Position numbers and translations under genes: made by a program
DNA from: a virus
DNA: 64,000 bases
Direction: 5' to 3' (one strand)
IMG/VR virus record: IMGVR_UViG_3300043464_001162
Location: 23,045-87,044 of that record
The notes under the pieces: model-generated
The model's input: the letters and a program-made list of their open reading frames with translations, nothing else
What the model was told of the DNA's origin: nothing
Database searches by the model: none
Part shown: piece by piece, positions 13,095 through 24,102 of the stretch
Numbering within the stretch: position 1 is the first letter of the stretch
How the letters are laid out: every line of letters starts with the position of its first letter

Positions 13095-13577
13095 ATGTAT
13101 ACAAATTTAATAGAAAACTTTCTAACAATAGAGGAGTGTAATTTTATAATAAATCAATATAAATTTAATTCACAACCAGTATTTAACTCAATAAATGTTA
13201 TAGAAAGAAGGTGTACGTTTGTAGAATCAATACAATTTGATATTGAAAATAAAATAATTAATAAATTAAATGAATTAGATATATTTGATAAACAATATAC
13301 TAATATACAATATTTTGTATTTAATTCTTATGATATTGACAATGAATTAGAATTACATCCAGATAGTAGTGAAGTTGCAAGAGGTGGAACTATTACTATT
13401 ATTATTCAATTAAATGAAGAGTATGATGGTGGTGATTTTTACTATTTACTAAATGATGTAGAAATTATGTTACCCAAAAAACAGGGAAGTATATTTATTT
13501 TTGATTCAAATATTTTACATGGAGTTAAAAAATTAACCGATGGAAAAAGATATTCATTAAATTGTTGGCCTAAATAA
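13095..13577 (+). CDS. 2-oxoglutarate/Fe(II) dioxygenase, prolyl-hydroxylase-like (first copy)
   Basis: A 160-residue double-stranded beta-helix oxygenase. The iron ligands are visible as H88-x-D90 (ELHPDS) and H142 (NILHGV), and R152 in KRYSLNCW is the 2-oxoglutarate anchor ten residues later. Typical core strands TIIIQLNEEYDGGDFYY and KQGSIFIFDS lie between. This is the layout of small prolyl-4-hydroxylase-like enzymes, which hydroxylate protein side chains; the substrate cannot be read from sequence. It starts 1 bp after the fibre gene and ends 8 bp before a gene for a protein with 15 consecutive prolines, with a second oxygenase on the far side. A proline substrate is therefore an attractive inference. 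Confidence 0.85.
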   Translation: MYTNLIENFLTIEECNFIINQYKFNSQPVFNSINVIERRCTFVESIQFDIENKIINKLNELDIFDKQYTNIQYFVFNSYDIDNELELHPDSSEVARGGTITIIIQLNEEYDGGDFYYLLNDVEIMLPKKQGSIFIFDSNILHGVKKLTDGKRYSLNCWPK

Positions 13578-13585
13578 AATAATAT

Positions 13586-14281
13586 ATGGCGTTACAAAGT
13601 ACCGGACCTATATCGATGTCACAAATTAAAGCTGAATTGGGTTCTACATCTAATATATTAAGAGTATATTCCGAAGCTGCTGGAAAAACTGCACCACATG
13701 GTATGAAAGAATTTTTAGGATATAGTAAACCCGGCCCTCCTCCTCCACCACCGCCTCCTCCGCCACCACCACCTCCACCGGCTCCGACATATTATTCATT
13801 TCCAGCTATTCGTAGTACAACAAGTGCACAGGATGCATGTGATTCATTAGGCCCTATTATCACTATTTATAGTACCTGTCAAACTTTGATTGCAAATTGT
13901 ATATTATATACATATTTTGATGCAGAACCAGAGCTATTAAGAACTGTTCTATCTGGTTGGTATTCAATAGGGGACAATTGGTATTATGTTAATAATAATT
14001 CAGGAACTATTAATAGTACAGGAACATGTGATGGTGGTACATCACCTGAATGTGAATGTTATAGGGTTACTAATGAGGGTGGACGTAACGATGGTGGTAT
14101 AACATTCACATATAATAGATGTTCGGATGGTATTTTAGACGAATTGACTGTTGGACCAGGGTCTTCTAGAACAGTATGTGTGCAAAATGGTACAGATATA
14201 AACTCTGATTCTGGATTAATGACAGTATCATCTTGTCCAGACCCATGTACTACAAATGGTGATTGTGTGGAGTGTGCATAA
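13586..14281 (+). CDS. Poly-proline, cysteine-rich fibre/adaptor protein
   Basis: A 231-residue protein in three parts. Residues 1-50 (SGPISMSQI-like start TGPISMSQIKAEL, ending MKEFLGYS) match a motif recurrent in phage tail-fibre and hinge proteins. Then comes a run of 15 consecutive prolines bounded by KPG and APT. The C-terminal ~150 residues carry 12 cysteines (PECECY, SCPDPCT, GDCVECA) and many Asn/Gly/Thr, probably a disulfide-stabilised binding head. The proline codons are mixed (CCT, CCA, CCG), so the tract is not a simple slippage product. It is flanked on both sides by prolyl-hydroxylase-like enzymes, then glycosyltransferases, suggesting that it is their target. Confidence 0.7.
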   Translation: MALQSTGPISMSQIKAELGSTSNILRVYSEAAGKTAPHGMKEFLGYSKPGPPPPPPPPPPPPPPPAPTYYSFPAIRSTTSAQDACDSLGPIITIYSTCQTLIANCILYTYFDAEPELLRTVLSGWYSIGDNWYYVNNNSGTINSTGTCDGGTSPECECYRVTNEGGRNDGGITFTYNRCSDGILDELTVGPGSSRTVCVQNGTDINSDSGLMTVSSCPDPCTTNGDCVECA

Positions 14282-14291
14282 TAAATAAATT

Positions 14292-14867
14292 ATGATTATA
14301 AAAGAAAATTTAATTTTTAAGTACGATAATATTATATCAAGTTTAGAGTGTGATACTATTTTTAATTACTATAAAAATAATCATAGTAATGGTATAAATG
14401 ATATTCATATTTTACCTTGGTTTGAAGAAAACACTTTGTATTGGAATCTTTTAAAAAATACCGAAATTAAAAATGAAATAGGTAAATGTAGAGAAATTAT
14501 AACAAATTTAATAAAAAAATCGTATGGTGTAAATGTATTCCCAAATGTTACCACATTAGTAATGTGGAAGGAAGGTAAATCAATGGCAATTCATAAAGAT
14601 AATGGATATGACAATGACAAACATATTTTACATATGAGAACCTTCACTGCAGTGATGTATATTAATGATGATTTTGAAGGAGGTGAAACTATAATAATGA
14701 AAGAAAACTCAAATGAAATAGAATATGAATGTACACCACAAAAAGGTTCAGTTTTAATATTTAAAAGTGATGAGAGTTGTTTGCATGGGGTAAAAATGAT
14801 TGAAAAAGGTGAAAGATTAACATTATCAATGTGGTTTACAATGGATAAACAATATTTAGAAAATTAA
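14292..14867 (+). CDS. 2-oxoglutarate/Fe(II) dioxygenase, prolyl-hydroxylase-like (second copy)
   Basis: A 191-residue oxygenase of the same fold as the 13095 gene but divergent. The iron ligands are H101-x-D103 (AIHKDNGY) and H165 (CLHGVKM), and the 2-oxoglutarate arginine is R175 (GERLTLSMW). The core strands FTAVMYINDDFEGGETII and KGSVLIFKSD are characteristic of the prolyl-4-hydroxylase alpha-subunit-like superfamily. It lies 10 bp after the poly-proline fibre gene and 7 bp before a glycosyltransferase gene. Two different enzymes around one Pro-rich protein may mean two hydroxylation sites. Substrate is inference. Confidence 0.87.
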   Translation: MIIKENLIFKYDNIISSLECDTIFNYYKNNHSNGINDIHILPWFEENTLYWNLLKNTEIKNEIGKCREIITNLIKKSYGVNVFPNVTTLVMWKEGKSMAIHKDNGYDNDKHILHMRTFTAVMYINDDFEGGETIIMKENSNEIEYECTPQKGSVLIFKSDESCLHGVKMIEKGERLTLSMWFTMDKQYLEN

Positions 14868-14874
14868 ATAAGTT

Positions 14875-15849
14875 ATGATAGTTTTTATTACAACAGGTTA
14901 CGGAAAAAATATTATTGGTGGTGCCGATTTGTGGTGCAATAATTTTATAGAAAATATTTTACCATTAGTCAAAGAAGATTACAAAATCGTAATTGATGGT
15001 AGACCTTTAATTAAAGAATTTGGTGCAATCTACACTTACGAAAACGAAAAAGAAGTTGATAGGATATTAAAAGAATGTGATAAGATTATTTTCTTACACC
15101 ATTCTTACAAACCAAATCCTGTTATTAAAAACTATTTACACAAAACTTATCTTACATTTGTCCATGCTTTCATTCCTGATATGTTGGGATTAAATTCCGA
15201 TTATGAAAATTTAATGACAAAAGTAGATTGGGAATGGCAAAAAGAAATATTAGATAATTCCGATAACATAGTTTGGATAGGATATGAGAACGATACGATA
15301 CACAACGAATATCCAAAAACAAAAACAATTACAAATTATTACGAATGGAAACATGGTAAACCATTTACAGGCATTGTAAGTGATAAAATTGGATATGCTG
15401 CAAGATGTGAGACCAGAAAGAATGCACATTATTTAGATTACATTCCATCAATTATATTTTCAAACAAATATGATTATAAAAGAATGTTAGAAGGGTCAAA
15501 TACAAATTCCGACTATCATAGGTTTATGGAGTTTGATTACACATTTCATAATAAATTCTTTGAAGGAAACTTTCAAATATTTCATGGATGTTATACAAAA
15601 GAACCATTTGGTTATGCAATATTTGATGCAGTGGATAGTGGTAAGGTTCCAATTATACATACCGATTGGATGAAACATATTGATTACAAATATCGAGCAA
15701 ATTCTAAAGGAGAATTTCATCAAAGATATTTAGAATTACAAGAAGATAGTTTTGAAAAAGTAAATTTAGAATTTTGTAAATTAAGAGACGGACTAACAAA
15801 GTATACAAATAAACAAAATTGGATTAAAGAAATAATAGAAATAATATGA
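14875..15849 (+). CDS. Putative GT-B glycosyltransferase
   Basis: A 324-residue protein with a GT-B look: N-terminal glycine-rich TTGYGKNIIGGADLWCNNF, and a C-terminal donor-site-like KEPFGYAIFDAVDSGKVPII resembling the E-x7-E region of GT4-type enzymes. No signal peptide or membrane helix is visible, so it should act in the host cytoplasm. It opens the transferase part of the island, 7 bp after the second oxygenase, and its stop overlaps the next start (ATGA). Donor and acceptor are unknown. The superfamily call is by motif only. Confidence 0.6.
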   Translation: MIVFITTGYGKNIIGGADLWCNNFIENILPLVKEDYKIVIDGRPLIKEFGAIYTYENEKEVDRILKECDKIIFLHHSYKPNPVIKNYLHKTYLTFVHAFIPDMLGLNSDYENLMTKVDWEWQKEILDNSDNIVWIGYENDTIHNEYPKTKTITNYYEWKHGKPFTGIVSDKIGYAARCETRKNAHYLDYIPSIIFSNKYDYKRMLEGSNTNSDYHRFMEFDYTFHNKFFEGNFQIFHGCYTKEPFGYAIFDAVDSGKVPIIHTDWMKHIDYKYRANSKGEFHQRYLELQEDSFEKVNLEFCKLRDGLTKYTNKQNWIKEIIEII

Positions 15850-19736: not shown

Positions 19737-19988
19737 ATGGCTTTAAAGAAAAAAGAAGTTACAGAAGTTGTAAAGAATGAAATTCCACAACAAACTAATA
19801 TCATTTCAAATGAAGAGTTATTAATGCTTGAAACTAAAAAAGTTAAAGCTTTGGAAAAGATTGCAAATTCATTAGATGCTCTTACGGTTTGGTTTGAAGA
19901 AATTGATAAAGACGATTGGAGTAGTAGAATTCAATACTATTTGTCTGAATTTCACAAGGTAGTACCAAAAGACAAAAACGATGCATAA
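19737..19988 (+). CDS. Small hypothetical protein
   Basis: An 83-residue protein with a Lys/Glu-rich start (MALKKKEVTEVVKNEI), a probable coiled-coil helix LMLETKKVKALEKIANSLDA and a tail WFEEIDKDDWSSRIQYYLSE. Not recognised. Its end overlaps the start of the first GT7 gene by 8 bp, so the two are probably translated together, and it may be an adaptor for that enzyme. No cysteine, signal or membrane segment. Confidence 0.5.
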   Translation: MALKKKEVTEVVKNEIPQQTNIISNEELLMLETKKVKALEKIANSLDALTVWFEEIDKDDWSSRIQYYLSEFHKVVPKDKNDA

Positions 19989-21276
19989 ACTTGGTGTAAT
20001 AGTTCCATACAGAAACAGGTATGAACATTTACAAGAGTTTAAAAAAAGTATAGTAGAATATTTAGAATCTAAAAATATAGATTTTAAAATTATTATTGTT
20101 GAACAAGACAATGCTAAACTTTTTAATAGAGGAATGTTATGCAACATTGGATTTATAGAAGCACAAAAAGAAAATTGTGATTATATAGTAATTCACGATG
20201 TTGATATGATACCAGTTGATGTTGATTATTCATACTCAAATGTGCCAGTCCATTTGGCAACTGATAATATTCCATTTGAATCTTATTTTGGCGGAATGAC
20301 TTTGTTTCCTACCGATATATTTCAAAAAATAAATGGTTTTTCTAATTTATATTGGGGTTGGGGATTTGAAGATGATGATTTGCGATATAGATGTGTAAGA
20401 AAGAGTGTACCTTTTGCAAAAATTATAAATGATACATTTACTAAACAAAAATTACCTATTTTCAATGGGGTAAATGCTTTTGCAAAAATTCCTAATATTA
20501 TAAATTATAATAGAAGTTTTAAAATAGAATTGGATATAAATTTATCCAGAGTTGTTTATGATGAAAACTTACAATTTGATATATTTCCTATTTTATCAAT
20601 AAAGGGTTATGATTTCAAACTTTTTTATAATTCTTTTAATAGATTTTATTTACAATTGTTTGATAAAAAGGGTAATTACTATGATGTTTATTCGGATATA
20701 GTAACTGTATCGAATAATAAAATATCGATTGAATATCTTAAAGAAAACAACACCATAAATTTTTCAGTAAACGATAGTTTACATAGTATTGAACTTTCTA
20801 ATCACATATACAATTATTCAAATGTAGATAATATAATAATTGGCTCGGATGATGAGAAAAAACATTTTTTCAAAGGTAGTGTAAATGAATTTTTATTAAC
20901 ACAAAATGATGATGTAAAAATGCACTATCAAAATTATGATATTGAAGAATATAAATTTATTGATATTTCTGGTAATGAAAATCACGGAGAATTTTTTAAT
21001 ATCTATATAGACCATTTTAAGCCATTTGTAAATTATTATTCATATATTCCATTTAGACGAAATAGTAAATTAATAAAATTGGAACATAAAGATTGTGGAT
21101 TTAATGATGGTAGATGGCAAGATGATAATAGTAGGTGGAATCAATTAAGATATAATAATGAAGTACAGATAGGTTCTAGAGATAGAAAAATAGATGGCCT
21201 TTCAACTTTAGTAAAATATAAATTATATGGTAAGACTAACCAAAATAATATAATGCATTTAAATGTTGGAATATAA
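19981..21276 (+). CDS. GT7-family (beta-1,4-galactosyltransferase-like) enzyme with inserted LamG-like domain, copy 1
   Basis: A 431-residue protein. Residues 1-140 form a GT7 GT-A domain: MHKLGVIVPYRNRYEHL, the metal site HDVDM (D73, D75), ESYFGGMTLFP and the hallmark YWGWGFEDDDL at 124-134. About residues 160-330 are a concanavalin-A/laminin-G-like beta domain. The GT7 C-terminal signature DGLSTLVKYKL (from 405) reappears only after that. The lectin-like module is therefore inserted inside the transferase. GT7 enzymes add Gal, GalNAc or GlcNAc in beta-1,4 linkage; the donor here is unknown. The stop overlaps the next gene's start (TAATG). Confidence 0.8.
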   Translation: MHKLGVIVPYRNRYEHLQEFKKSIVEYLESKNIDFKIIIVEQDNAKLFNRGMLCNIGFIEAQKENCDYIVIHDVDMIPVDVDYSYSNVPVHLATDNIPFESYFGGMTLFPTDIFQKINGFSNLYWGWGFEDDDLRYRCVRKSVPFAKIINDTFTKQKLPIFNGVNAFAKIPNIINYNRSFKIELDINLSRVVYDENLQFDIFPILSIKGYDFKLFYNSFNRFYLQLFDKKGNYYDVYSDIVTVSNNKISIEYLKENNTINFSVNDSLHSIELSNHIYNYSNVDNIIIGSDDEKKHFFKGSVNEFLLTQNDDVKMHYQNYDIEEYKFIDISGNENHGEFFNIYIDHFKPFVNYYSYIPFRRNSKLIKLEHKDCGFNDGRWQDDNSRWNQLRYNNEVQIGSRDRKIDGLSTLVKYKLYGKTNQNNIMHLNVGI

Positions 21277-22694
21277 TGAAATTAGGAGTTTGTGTACCAT
21301 ATAGAAATAGAGAAGCTCATATGAATGAGTTTGTTCCTCACGTTTCAAAGTTTTTGGAAGAGAGAGGAATTGAACATACAATTTATTTAGCACACCAATG
21401 TGATGATAAACTTTTTAATAGAGGTTTAATGAAAAATATTGCCGCTAAACATGCATTTGATGATGGGTGTGATTATATTGTATGGCACGACATTGATATG
21501 GTTCCTGAAGATGAGAGTTGTGACTATTCATTTCCAAAAGACAATCCACAACACATAGCAGTTCGTATATCACAATCAGACTATCAATTAAAATATGAGG
21601 AATACTTTGGTGGTGCAGTTGTATTCTCAAAAGAACAAGTAGAAAGAACTAACGGATATTCAAATGATTATTGGGATTGGGGAATGGAGGATGATGACCT
21701 TTTTTGGAGATGTGTAATGGAAGGATACGCTGAAAAAACTAAATTAGATTTCAATAAAGAAATGTATGTGGCAAATTTTAATGGTGTAAACTCAAAGATA
21801 CAATTTAGGCCAAGTAGAGAACAAAAAGATTCAATCTCAAACTCACATACCATTTCAGTATTAGTAAAGGCAGACCAACAAATTGAAAAAGTTCCTATTT
21901 GGTTAATCGGTGATGAAGATAGACAATTTATAGAATACCCAATTTTCAGAAAACCTGGATATGATTGGGGATTGTCATTTAATAATAGTAGAGCATATAC
22001 AATGCAACTATGGGATAGAATGAAGGGACATTTATATCAATGGATTAAAAGATATGAAAATCAATGGAGTTGGATAACAATGTCAGTTGACGCTGAAAAT
22101 AAAAAAGTACATTTTTATTTAAATGGTAGAGAAAGTGATGCAAGATTAGGAACTGGAACACAATCACCACTATATTTTAATGAAACATTGAAACGATATG
22201 GAATGGAACCATTTTATGTTGGATACTCAAAATCACCAGTCGAATCTTTTTTCAAAGGTGGTATTGCAAGTATACAAATGTGGAATAGGTGTTTGACTCC
22301 AGAAGAAATAAAAAATATACATAAAGAAACACCTGAAGATAATTTAATATTAGATATATTCACTATGAATTTAGAGTTTGGTGAAATGGAAAATATTAAA
22401 TTAACAAAAGAAACAATAGAAATACCACATACAATATTACCCCATAGACGAGATGGTAAATTTAAATGTTTACCACATCAAACGGAAGGATTGATAAGTG
22501 TTGGTGGTATTGACAAATGGGCAAAAGGTGAAACTACTGCAAGAAACGAAAGGCGATATATATTAAAAATGCAACAAGGTGAAATTGATTATAAAACGGA
22601 TGGTATCAATAATATGAAATACCAATTTATTTCAATTGACACTATTTATGATAGACATAAAATGATAAATGTTAAAACAATAAGTTATGAGTGA
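21276..22694 (+). CDS. GT7-family glycosyltransferase with inserted LamG domain, copy 2
   Basis: A 472-residue paralogue of the preceding gene with a clearer insert. GT7 part: MKLGVCVPYRNREAHM, HDIDM (D72, D74), YFGGAVVFSK, DYWDWGMEDDDLFWRC at 131-146. LamG-like part, about 168-360: NSHTISVLVKAD, WSWITMSVDAENKKVHFYLN and FFKGGIASIQMWNRCLTPEE, all typical of LamG_3 repeats. The GT7 end DGINNMKYQFISID starts at 442. The inserted lectin could hold the glycan acceptor. It shares TAATG coupling upstream and an 8-bp overlap downstream with a radical SAM gene. Confidence 0.87.
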   Translation: MKLGVCVPYRNREAHMNEFVPHVSKFLEERGIEHTIYLAHQCDDKLFNRGLMKNIAAKHAFDDGCDYIVWHDIDMVPEDESCDYSFPKDNPQHIAVRISQSDYQLKYEEYFGGAVVFSKEQVERTNGYSNDYWDWGMEDDDLFWRCVMEGYAEKTKLDFNKEMYVANFNGVNSKIQFRPSREQKDSISNSHTISVLVKADQQIEKVPIWLIGDEDRQFIEYPIFRKPGYDWGLSFNNSRAYTMQLWDRMKGHLYQWIKRYENQWSWITMSVDAENKKVHFYLNGRESDARLGTGTQSPLYFNETLKRYGMEPFYVGYSKSPVESFFKGGIASIQMWNRCLTPEEIKNIHKETPEDNLILDIFTMNLEFGEMENIKLTKETIEIPHTILPHRRDGKFKCLPHQTEGLISVGGIDKWAKGETTARNERRYILKMQQGEIDYKTDGINNMKYQFISIDTIYDRHKMINVKTISYE

Positions 22695-24102
22695 TGATAA
22701 AACATATATAGAGAACCCCCTATATGTAAAAGTAAGAGATGAATTAAATACGGTTGGTACGGGTATGTGTTTGGCAAAATGGACACAAGTAACCCTACAA
22801 TTACAAAGTGGTCATAATCACTCATGTCACCATCCAAAAACCCATAAAATTTCAGAAGTCGAAATAGCTAGAAATCCATCTGCACTTCACAACACTAGAT
22901 TTAAGAAATTAAAAAGAAAAGAGATGTTGAGTGGTGCAAGACCTAGTGAGTGTGATTATTGTTGGAATGTAGAGGATAACTCCGATAGATTTAGTGATAG
23001 AGTTTTTAAATCAGGAGAAAGTTGGTCATACCCATTCAAAGAAGAAATTTTTAATTCAGATTGGAGAGAAGACTACAACCCAAAATATGTGGAAGTTTCT
23101 TTCTCAAATGCATGTAATTTTAAATGTTCATATTGTGGCCCTGCATATAGTTCTAAATGGGTAGAAGAGGTTGAAGAATTTGGCCACTACCCAACAACTG
23201 ATAGATTTAATTCAAATGAATGGCTTAAAATAGAAGATAAATTTCCAATTCCACATAAAGATGCAAATCCATATGTAGAAGCATTTTGGAAATGGTGGCC
23301 AGAACTATATAGAGATTTACATACATTTAGAATAACTGGAGGAGAACCATTATTGTCAAAAGATACTTGGGGTGTATTGGATTTTATTATAAATGAACCA
23401 AATCCAAACACAGAGCTAAAATTAGCAATAAATTCTAATTTAGGAATACCTGATAGTTTGGTTGATAAATTTATTGAAAAAATAAAAAAAATCGAAGATG
23501 GTGGTAAAGTAAAAGAAATCGTAATTTTCACATCAGTAGATACTTGGGGAGAACAGGCAGAATATATTAGAACTGGATTAGAATTTAATAGATGGTGGAA
23601 TAATATAAATAAAATAATGACGAAATGTCCAAGAGTTATTATTACATTTATGTCAACTTATAATGCATTGAGTATTTTTAATTATGAGAAATTAATTCAT
23701 AATGTTTATAAATTAAAAGACGAATATGCATCAACCGATAGATATTGGTCATCTGCAGTATTCTTAGACTCATCGTATCTTAGATACCCATTCCATCAAG
23801 CAGTGCAAGTTTTACCAATGGATTTTTCTAAATACATTTTAGACCAAGCAAAATTGATTACATATTATGCAGCACCTAATTTTAGTCACGAACATATTGG
23901 GTATAGTGATGTAGAAGTTCAGAAAGTAAAAAGAATTTATGATTGGATGAATGCACCACAAGATGCTGAAACACAAATGAAAAATAGATATAATTTTTAT
24001 CAATACTTTTCAAATCACGATATTAGAAGAGGAACTAATTTTCTAAAAACATTTCCTGAATTAGAAGAATTTTACAACTTCTGTAAAACAATACAATTAT
24101 GA
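22687..24102 (+). CDS. Radical SAM protein (twitch/SPASM-like), first of three
   Basis: A 471-residue protein. The [4Fe-4S]-SAM motif CNFKCSYC is near residue 143, followed by the SAM-binding RITGGEPLL near 218. Extra N-terminal cysteines (CHHPKTH, SECDYCW) could bind a second cluster, as in twitch/SPASM proteins. Such enzymes perform radical chemistry such as epimerisation, dehydration or peptide cross-linking. It overlaps the GT7 gene by 8 bp and a LamG-like gene by 4 bp, so it belongs to the glycan operon. Substrate unknown. Confidence 0.8.
   Translation: MSDDKTYIENPLYVKVRDELNTVGTGMCLAKWTQVTLQLQSGHNHSCHHPKTHKISEVEIARNPSALHNTRFKKLKRKEMLSGARPSECDYCWNVEDNSDRFSDRVFKSGESWSYPFKEEIFNSDWREDYNPKYVEVSFSNACNFKCSYCGPAYSSKWVEEVEEFGHYPTTDRFNSNEWLKIEDKFPIPHKDANPYVEAFWKWWPELYRDLHTFRITGGEPLLSKDTWGVLDFIINEPNPNTELKLAINSNLGIPDSLVDKFIEKIKKIEDGGKVKEIVIFTSVDTWGEQAEYIRTGLEFNRWWNNINKIMTKCPRVIITFMSTYNALSIFNYEKLIHNVYKLKDEYASTDRYWSSAVFLDSSYLRYPFHQAVQVLPMDFSKYILDQAKLITYYAAPNFSHEHIGYSDVEVQKVKRIYDWMNAPQDAETQMKNRYNFYQYFSNHDIRRGTNFLKTFPELEEFYNFCKTIQL

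Follow-up and report, generated by a model that had tools for sequence, protein, structure and literature searches.

Prolyl hydroxylation of Pro-rich rods is well known from plant extensins and other hydroxyproline-rich glycoproteins. Here we describe a possible phage counterpart, found in a 64,000-nucleotide stretch of viral DNA (hereafter the window; positions 23,045 to 87,044 of the IMG/VR virus record IMGVR_UViG_3300043464_001162). In this stretch, the gene of a putative tail-tip protein with 15 consecutive prolines is followed by oxyB, which encodes a 2-oxoglutarate (2OG)-Fe(II) oxygenase. Based on sequence and fold comparisons and on the co-occurrence of such tips with oxygenases, oxyB probably hydroxylates the prolines of this rod before assembly of the virion.

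The described enzymes nearest to oxyB, in sequence and in fold, are P3H1 and the PHD/EGLN group; their substrates are collagen or HIF, whereas oxyB is a stand-alone domain of 191 amino acids (aa) encoded beside a poly-Pro tip gene. The virus PBCV-1 also encodes a small 2OG prolyl hydroxylase, vCPH, which is matched by oxyB in fold and, in sequence, by phage relatives having Lys at the 2OG site (hereafter Lys-type). However, PBCV-1 is a eukaryotic algal virus in whose virions hydroxyproline was not detected, according to the accessible part of the report (PMC7019647), while in the window the proposed substrate is the product of the neighbouring gene. In the Skp1 pathway, the prolyl 4-hydroxylase (P4H) PhyA works with the hydroxyproline GlcNAc-transferase Gnt1, which the available text of PMC6939170 assigns to GT60. 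Two loci of our comparison, L239 and L288 (loci are numbered with the prefix L), likewise pair a Lys-type P4H with a PF11397, GT60-like enzyme, but there the substrate would be a Thr/Pro-rich phage tip, and a search of the window's record for PF11397, made without positive control, gave no match. With no hydroxyproline glycosyltransferase identified by this search, the window phage also differs from the plant extensins. Finally, PLOD/LH3 and COLGALT1 have a likeness in a protein of the cyanophages S-CAM9 and S-PRM1 with GT25 and PLOD glycosyltransferase domains, encoded beside a collagen tail fibre; its linker and enzyme set differ from those of the window, and we treat it as a parallel case.

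Phage 2OG-Fe(II) oxygenases are widespread, mostly without known substrate. Some were found with Phold to resemble human EGLN3, and the accessible section of that report proposes no substrate (PMC12774648). With its gene consistently paired with that of a proposed substrate, one family of them gains a directly testable target. In the open-access literature without preprints, our search, which excluded the collagen-fibre case, found among the papers listed no account of a phage virion with hydroxyproline or hydroxylated prolines.

The oxygenase oxyB resembles prolyl hydroxylases

Two oxygenase genes flank the tip gene, oxyA upstream and oxyB downstream, with intergenic gaps of 8 bp (oxyA/tip) and 10 bp (tip/oxyB); the three genes come after that of a long tail fibre protein, all on the plus strand. 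Both enzymes belong to PF13640 (38.1 bits for oxyA and 50.7 bits for oxyB, cut-off 27) and match the PHROG 61 phage 2OG-Fe(II) oxygenases (3.7e-19 and 1.8e-21, respectively). The HxD...H iron triad and the distal basic residue for 2OG are present in both, as H88, D90, H142 and R152 in oxyA and H101, D103, H165 and R175 in oxyB. These four residues are invariant among 9 aligned oxyA-type sequences and among 12 aligned sequences of the oxyB and 177-aa types. An earlier note on this DNA had recorded the same residues, the same spacing and a tip with 15 consecutive prolines and 12 cysteines, and the open reading frame (ORF) coordinates and counts agree with it; the cysteines, which it had placed in a "head", sit in the C-terminal part of the tip. 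The Pro tract is the sole run of at least 5 Pro in any ORF of at least 50 aa within the window. Since its codons are mixed (CCT/CCA/CCG) and the window has a G+C content of 30%, it is not a simple DNA repeat.

Compared by sequence with solved structures, oxyB matches P3H1 (2e-10) and the Bacillus P4H, BaP4H (4e-5). Its structural model (predicted local distance difference test, pLDDT, 83) has a prolyl-hydroxylase-like fold, with P3H1 as best match (Z 20.8, 2.1 Å, 179 aligned residues), then PHD2 (Z 18.3) and PBCV-1 P4H (Z 18.0). The 50 Foldseek rows listed are all prolyl hydroxylases except two rows of an unassigned 2OG oxygenase, 6n1f; the number of PHD2 fold matches carries no weight, since PDB is rich in PHD2 entries. 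Because its closest solved relatives (P3H1, BaP4H) are prolyl hydroxylases, both in sequence and in fold, we read oxyB as a prolyl hydroxylase-like enzyme that would hydroxylate the tip prolines.

The same comparison by sequence gave nothing significant for oxyA, the best match being PiuC (0.13). The fold of its model (pLDDT 94) is matched by an algal P4H with Z 18.8, within 1 of PHD2 and PiuC (17.9), and none of its nine nearest relatives in the oxygenase tree described below has a poly-Pro neighbour. With such relatives, and a fold that ties prolyl hydroxylases with PiuC-type enzymes, an action of oxyA on the same Pro tract, as the earlier note had suggested, appears conceivable but somewhat doubtful.

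Lys rather than Arg at the 2OG site marks the collagen-type P4H, while P3H1 and the PHD enzymes use Arg. This residue is Arg in oxyA and oxyB, neither of which has the Lys after the distal His of the collagen type, and Lys in the enzymes of L048, L072 and L239. The Lys-type phage relatives match BaP4H (4e-31) and PBCV-1 P4H (4.7e-15), as well as human and algal P4H.

Poly-Pro tips and oxygenases occur together

The three genes occupy what we call the slot, a region of variable content between the long tail fibre gene and a gene of 324 aa. The latter served as anchor in a scan of viral contigs blind to proline and to oxygenase, which returned 66 loci; it occurs in every slot by construction, as the loci were fetched through it. 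We scored 61 slots, namely the window and 60 others; L053, L083, L100 and L101, with a cut slot or gene, were dropped, and L040 and L041, which are 100% copies of the window, were left out of the slot counts. To call oxygenases, we made a profile from those of the slots and ran it iteratively against every ORF; proline was scored as the longest run per slot protein. The threshold for poly-Pro was a run of at least 4 in the slot (elsewhere at least 8, or 13 Pro in 30) and was set after seeing the data; no slot locus has a longest run of 3, so that a cut at 3 or 4 splits them alike.

In such conditions, poly-Pro and oxygenase co-occur tightly: six slots have both (longest Pro runs of 4, 5, 15, 17, 19 and 26), 55 have neither (runs of 0-2) and none is mixed. 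The Fisher test gives 1.8e-8 for this table, a value valid only if the rows are independent, and they are related (51 different anchor sequences). On the tree of the anchor protein, we counted 5 changes per trait, which coincide in 5/5 independent pairs, and in 3/3 on well-supported branches.

We also aligned the N-terminal domain of 9 slot proteins, the other eight being 45-91% identical to that of the window. The linker after this shared domain is poly-Pro, Thr-Pro, poly-Gly or poly-Thr. All six proteins with poly-Pro, or with Thr-Pro plus PPPP, have an oxygenase in the slot. L051, with a similar N-terminal domain and a Gly6 linker, has none; nor do L042 (poly-Thr) and L103 (Thr/Pro repeats without PPPP), but these carry an enzyme of a 307-338-aa family. 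The tips of L005 and L084 differ by 3/45 residues before the linker, yet their oxygenases are of different types, a 191-aa oxyB-type enzyme (83% homologue of oxyB) in L005 and a 185-aa type, then DUF6065, in L084. A scan with the N-terminal domain gave 47 loci, and those with a Pro run of at least 4 have an oxygenase directly downstream in 8/8 cases, seven of which are window copies or slot-set loci, leaving L228 as the only new one. The other 39 were checked from 3 genes upstream to 4 downstream of the tip; there, the copy of L042 has an oxygenase upstream of the fibre and L239 has one further along the cassette.

In the reverse direction, an alignment of the 177-aa oxygenase (seeds L008, L084 and L228) found at least 16 viral loci, with 15 full-length matches of which three are the seeds. 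A poly-Pro protein lies directly upstream in 12/12 non-seed full-length loci among the matches listed (6 distinct proteins). The sixteenth locus, L285, is outside the 15; it has a weak partial relative of the oxygenase (34%) and no poly-Pro neighbour. Two more loci came from other scans: L200, found by a proline-codon pattern, has a 177-type oxygenase and, 51 bp later, a poly-Pro ORF running off the contig, and L337, a phage-like contig found by a DUF6065 scan, has a Pro-rich protein directly upstream. A conserved linkage, the absence of which the earlier note had named beforehand as a refutation, was thus found in both directions.

For an oxygenase tree, we kept one copy of each sequence, ORFs of 140-420 aa and matches of at least 1e-15, which gave 119 entries. 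Of these, 22 have a Pro-rich protein encoded no more than four genes away, and this label changes 8 times on the tree vs a mean of 20.5 for shuffled labels; at least 4 of the changes are forced by well-supported branches, many inner branches being weak. Among the 22 labelled oxygenases are oxyA, the oxyB pair, the Lys-type group and the 177-type, but the label also falls on the upstream oxygenase in L072 and on those of L305 and L331, which have a collagen-like neighbour. Poly-Pro-linked oxygenases occupy diverged parts of the tree, and three diverged groups are found in slots. An alignment of the Lys-type P4H gave 50 loci, 34 of which were tabulated (L286-L302 and 17/33 after them). The 8 most similar (L286-L293; three seeds and one seed copy) have Pro/Thr-rich proteins within four genes and the next nine (L294-L302) have no such neighbours; some of the 17 tabulated from the last 33 have collagen-like neighbours.

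A putative proline-modifying cassette

We propose that the slot holds an exchangeable tail-tip (adhesin) cassette, in which the 15-Pro rod, presumably a polyproline-II helix, would join the N-terminal domain of the tip to its Cys-rich C-terminal part. During infection and ahead of assembly, cytoplasmic oxyB would turn rod prolines into hydroxyproline, at C3 or at C4. Hydroxylation would stiffen the rod, tune its stability and supply hydroxyls for later decoration. In relatives, the oxygenase is lost or exchanged along with the proline stretch, a pattern suggestive of collagen- or plant-like protein modification by phages on their own fibres. The proposal of the earlier note that the phage hydroxylates its own poly-Pro protein is supported for oxyB, which is prolyl-hydroxylase-like and tied to the poly-Pro tip, and is not supported as to both enzymes acting on the tract. 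More generally, phages would appear to use enzymes of their own to hydroxylate, and perhaps also to glycosylate, their receptor-binding proteins, a chemistry usually considered eukaryotic.

Several observations weigh against this proposal. By themselves, 3 to 5 independent pairs do not suffice for significance (sign test p 0.25), and with a Pro-run cut of 6, L048 and L072 (Thr-Pro repeats, P4/P5) become slots with an oxygenase and without poly-Pro. Among the N-terminal domain loci without poly-Pro, an oxygenase adjoins the tip in L256 and lies four genes away in five L262-type loci; an oxygenase is also present upstream of the fibre in 13/59 non-poly-Pro loci. Among genome contigs with a 177-type oxygenase beside DUF6065, 7/8 loci have no P-rich neighbour, L337 being the exception. 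In a proline-codon sample of at least 120 stretches, many of them short and with poly-Pro assigned by strand majority, we counted 36 poly-Pro loci and 14 undecided; 2/36 have an oxygenase, 1 of them adjacent, and the remaining stretches of the sample have none. As for the enzyme itself, oxyB has NCBIfam matches, far below cut-off, to the Fe2+-dependent dioxygenase PRK05467 (1.5e-7) and to the cyclophane-peptide oxygenase YhhC (3e-6). Finally, the PBCV-1 P4H is active on peptides, yet hydroxyproline was sought in its virions without success, as far as the accessible part of that paper goes (PMC7019647).

The 177-aa oxygenase family is not tied to poly-Pro as a whole, because of these 7/8 DUF6065 loci, and the codon-pattern sample contradicts a general pairing of phage poly-Pro proteins with oxygenases, an idea that we rejected. 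Since neither poly-Pro proteins nor the enzyme family are linked at large, the linkage is a property of these tail-tip cassettes. A scan of genome contigs with the 177-aa alignment confirmed no locus, which is a limit of the scan, since homologues occur beside DUF6065 in the same collection. In the collection of phages, we found no relative of the tip and none of DUF6065. The stretches around the fibre homologue in Microcystis phage Mel-JY01 and in LR756508.1 have no Pro run of at least 6 and no oxygenase, and no poly-Pro gene lies near the annotated P4H of Mel-JY01.

The idea that any oxygenase near the fibre is linked to poly-Pro was also discarded, given a conserved oxygenase of 237-241 aa (237 aa in its typical form) that is encoded just upstream of the tail fibre (L056, L065, L052, L085, L087, L088, L072 and others) and is untied to poly-Pro. 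In phages, the 177-type oxygenase is found together with DUF6065 (PF19541, tested in L084); the two also form an adjoining pair in contigs of metagenome-assembled genomes, there without poly-Pro. Tip-like proteins with a Hint/intein-type domain, judged by eye, were seen at L239:6556-7260, right after an 11-Pro run, and at L256:6001-6876.

Alternative explanations

A full hydroxyproline-O-glycan system in this phage, in which oxyB (and oxyA) would hydroxylate and the glycosyltransferases of the island would then glycosylate the hydroxyprolines, seems to us rather unlikely. The window does contain family-supported glycosyltransferases of Glyco_transf_7 type (Table 1), which may or may not be tied to poly-Pro. 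The earlier note had glycosyltransferases directly following oxyB; however, the gene at this place is the 324-aa gene, which has no Pfam family over cut-off. We did not retain it as proof of tract glycosylation, as it is present whether a slot has poly-Pro (6 slots) or lacks it (55 slots). Since this gene occurs without poly-Pro and the family-supported glycosyltransferases begin only at 19981, the neighbourhood alone fails to show that downstream genes glycosylate the tract. In addition to the PF11397 result given above, the record has no match to the poly-Thr-linked 311-aa family (also a search without positive control).

A parallel for such a system comes from L239 and L288, where the gene of a Thr/Pro-rich tip shares one cassette with those of a Lys-type P4H and of a glycosyltransferase that belongs to PF11397 (2.9e-31 and 1.3e-37) and has a DxH motif. 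We take PF11397 to correspond to GT60, so these two loci have both members of a Skp1-type pair, a P4H and a GT60-like enzyme; by sequence, the PF11397 protein has no significant relative among solved structures. According to the accessible part of PMC7185993, GT60 has DxH instead of DxD. The family also includes the polypeptide GlcNAc-transferase of T. cruzi, as stated in the available text of PMC6939170, and Thr may therefore be the acceptor in L239 and L288. Glycosylation of hydroxyproline is plausible in these two relatives, and better supported there than in the window phage.

It is improbable that the oxygenases modify other targets on the tip, i.e. residues of the Cys-rich C-terminal part or tip-borne sugars. 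For oxyA, PiuC-like enzymes and prolyl hydroxylases are about equally good matches, and oxyB has the sub-threshold matches to non-prolyl families mentioned above, but among solved structures it is prolyl hydroxylases that come closest to oxyB and to its counterparts. Moreover, L051 has a similar N-terminal domain without slot oxygenase, and the common feature of the oxygenase-linked tips is the P-rich linker. Even less credit can be given to a coincidence, with common moron oxygenases hitchhiking into a variable tip slot. The superfamily can be abundant, L026 having four oxygenases within about 10 kb, and the 13/59 loci cited have one upstream of the fibre, but the slot oxygenase is found in 0/55 slots without poly-Pro vs 6/6 with it, the reverse test gives 12/12 non-seed loci, and the poly-Pro-linked oxygenases are of diverged groups. 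An AlkB-like DNA/RNA repair function, the older reading for cyanophage genes, is hardly tenable: P4H-domain genes of Syn9, two of which adjoin uvsX/uvsY, were proposed for repair in the accessible part of PMC2984593 and the PHROG 2297/274 matches bear the name DNA endonuclease, but the listed Foldseek rows of oxyB are prolyl hydroxylases save 6n1f and the neighbours here are tail genes.

Other linkers and collagen tail fibres

The poly-Thr tips of L042 and L073 adjoin another enzyme family, and L276 and L277, with poly-Thr and poly-Pro, have both enzymes. In the slot set, the poly-Thr-linked family occurs in 2/2 poly-Thr slots vs 1/59 others (the Thr-rich L103). Its members, of 307-417 aa, are GT-A-like by eye, and those tested have no Pfam family over cut-off.

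In the Synechococcus phages S-CAM9 and S-PRM1, the tail fibre, annotated as hypothetical protein in S-PRM1, contains 59 collagen repeats; the test for PF01391, made in S-CAM9, gave 1.9e-21. The collagen fibre is followed by two oxygenases (PF13640, tested in S-CAM9), the first of which has no significant relative by sequence among solved structures in S-CAM9, and then by a 614-aa protein. In S-CAM9 the latter has matches to GT25 (1.4e-28) and to the PLOD glycosyltransferase domain (7.6e-47), while its C-terminus matches a procollagen lysyl hydroxylase (6ax6, 1.4e-8), presumably the mimivirus protein. The part from the PLOD glycosyltransferase domain to the C-terminus was found in 11 records of the phages collection, which by name are 7 phages or fragments, and one record of each was checked for collagen repeats. 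Such repeats occur no more than four genes upstream in S-CAM9, S-PRM1, S-8S53, S-8S55 and Roseobacter phage CRP-6, and also in S-8S56, there within a fragment whose annotation reads similar to tail fibre; none were seen in the 8.3-kb fragment AG-345-L05. The tail fibres of these loci, or putative ones, have 17-59 uninterrupted collagen repeats, with tandem 2OG-Fe oxygenases in the Synechococcus phages.

There is thus an apparent kit for collagen hydroxylation and glycosylation in phage isolates, judging from their genes. According to the accessible part of a 2012 paper, bacteria and viruses were held to be without prolyl hydroxylases for collagen (PMC3368898). As these cyanophages were isolated on Synechococcus, their virions are directly checkable. 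Collagen-like GXY proteins were also seen within 4 genes of oxygenases in many Lys-type P4H loci (L303-L335); in total, 18 loci have 27 genes of this kind, of which 23 lie near an oxygenase, all loci but L349 having been fetched by oxygenase.

We lean slightly towards the view that tailed phages carry linker-matched modification kits for their tips or fibres, so that a tip swap would be a kit swap. These would be prolyl hydroxylases for poly-Pro, GT-A-like enzymes for poly-Thr, P4H plus a GT60-like enzyme for Thr-Pro, and lysyl hydroxylase plus galactosyl-/glucosyltransferase for Lys-containing collagen. If so, phage enzymes would furnish the virions with hydroxyproline and with glycans of collagen or extensin type. 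This would bear on host range, on fibre mechanics and on enzyme discovery, as each kind of substrate (poly-Pro, Thr/Pro or collagen) would be accompanied by enzymes suited to it.

Gene organization of the locus

The coordinates of the locus and of the related sites are collected in Table 1. The window looks like a T4-like phage: its terminase, portal and major head genes have PHROG matches of 1.4e-47, 1.9e-65 and 4.6e-73, to PHROGs that we take to be of T4 type. The major head protein matches 2496 phage records, the best named isolates being Microcystis phage Mel-JY01 (53.8%) and Flavobacterium phage immuto (52.1%).

Table 1. Features of the window locus, with corresponding sites in other loci (positions refer to the window unless a locus is named)
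Feature	Position	Strand	Remarks
Long tail fibre protein, 1516 aa	8543..13093	+	PHROG tail fibre matches, best 4e-29; left border of slot
oxyA, 2OG-Fe(II) oxygenase, 160 aa	13095..13577	+	PF13640 3.2e-9; role on poly-Pro tract uncertain
Putative tail-tip (adhesin-like) protein, 231 aa	13586..14281	+	tip identity suggested by position and relatives
Tip N-terminal domain (MALQSTGPISMSQIK...EFLGYSK)	13586..13729	+	common to 9 aligned slot proteins
15 consecutive Pro codons	13736..13780	+	proposed substrate
Tip C-terminal part	13781..14278	+	holds all 12 Cys; partial homologue in L009
oxyB, prolyl-hydroxylase-like oxygenase, 191 aa	14292..14867	+	PF13640 3.8e-13; proposed tract hydroxylase
324-aa gene	14875..15849	+	right border of slot; glycosyltransferase-like by eye only; anchor of slot scan
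Two adjoining Glyco_transf_7-type proteins	19981-21276 and 21276-22694		Pfam-supported
Tip relatives	L005, L008, L048, L072, L084; L228		same slot; L228 in equivalent slot
DUF6065 sites	L084:8267-9004, L008:1297-2028, L228:8025-8756, L200:5795-6550, L336-L345		
Poly-Thr tip loci	L042:5824-8202, L073:6856-8331, L276, L277, L103		
Collagen loci	L350:537-9396, L351, L352, L353, L356, L354		L350, S-CAM9; L351, S-PRM1; L354, CRP-6

The second Glyco_transf_7-type protein (21276-22694) also has a LamG/ConA-like lectin domain. The IMG/VR record containing the window is 87 kb long, and a further PF13640 oxygenase was observed elsewhere in it, outside the window (G000:C1:129-395, L002).

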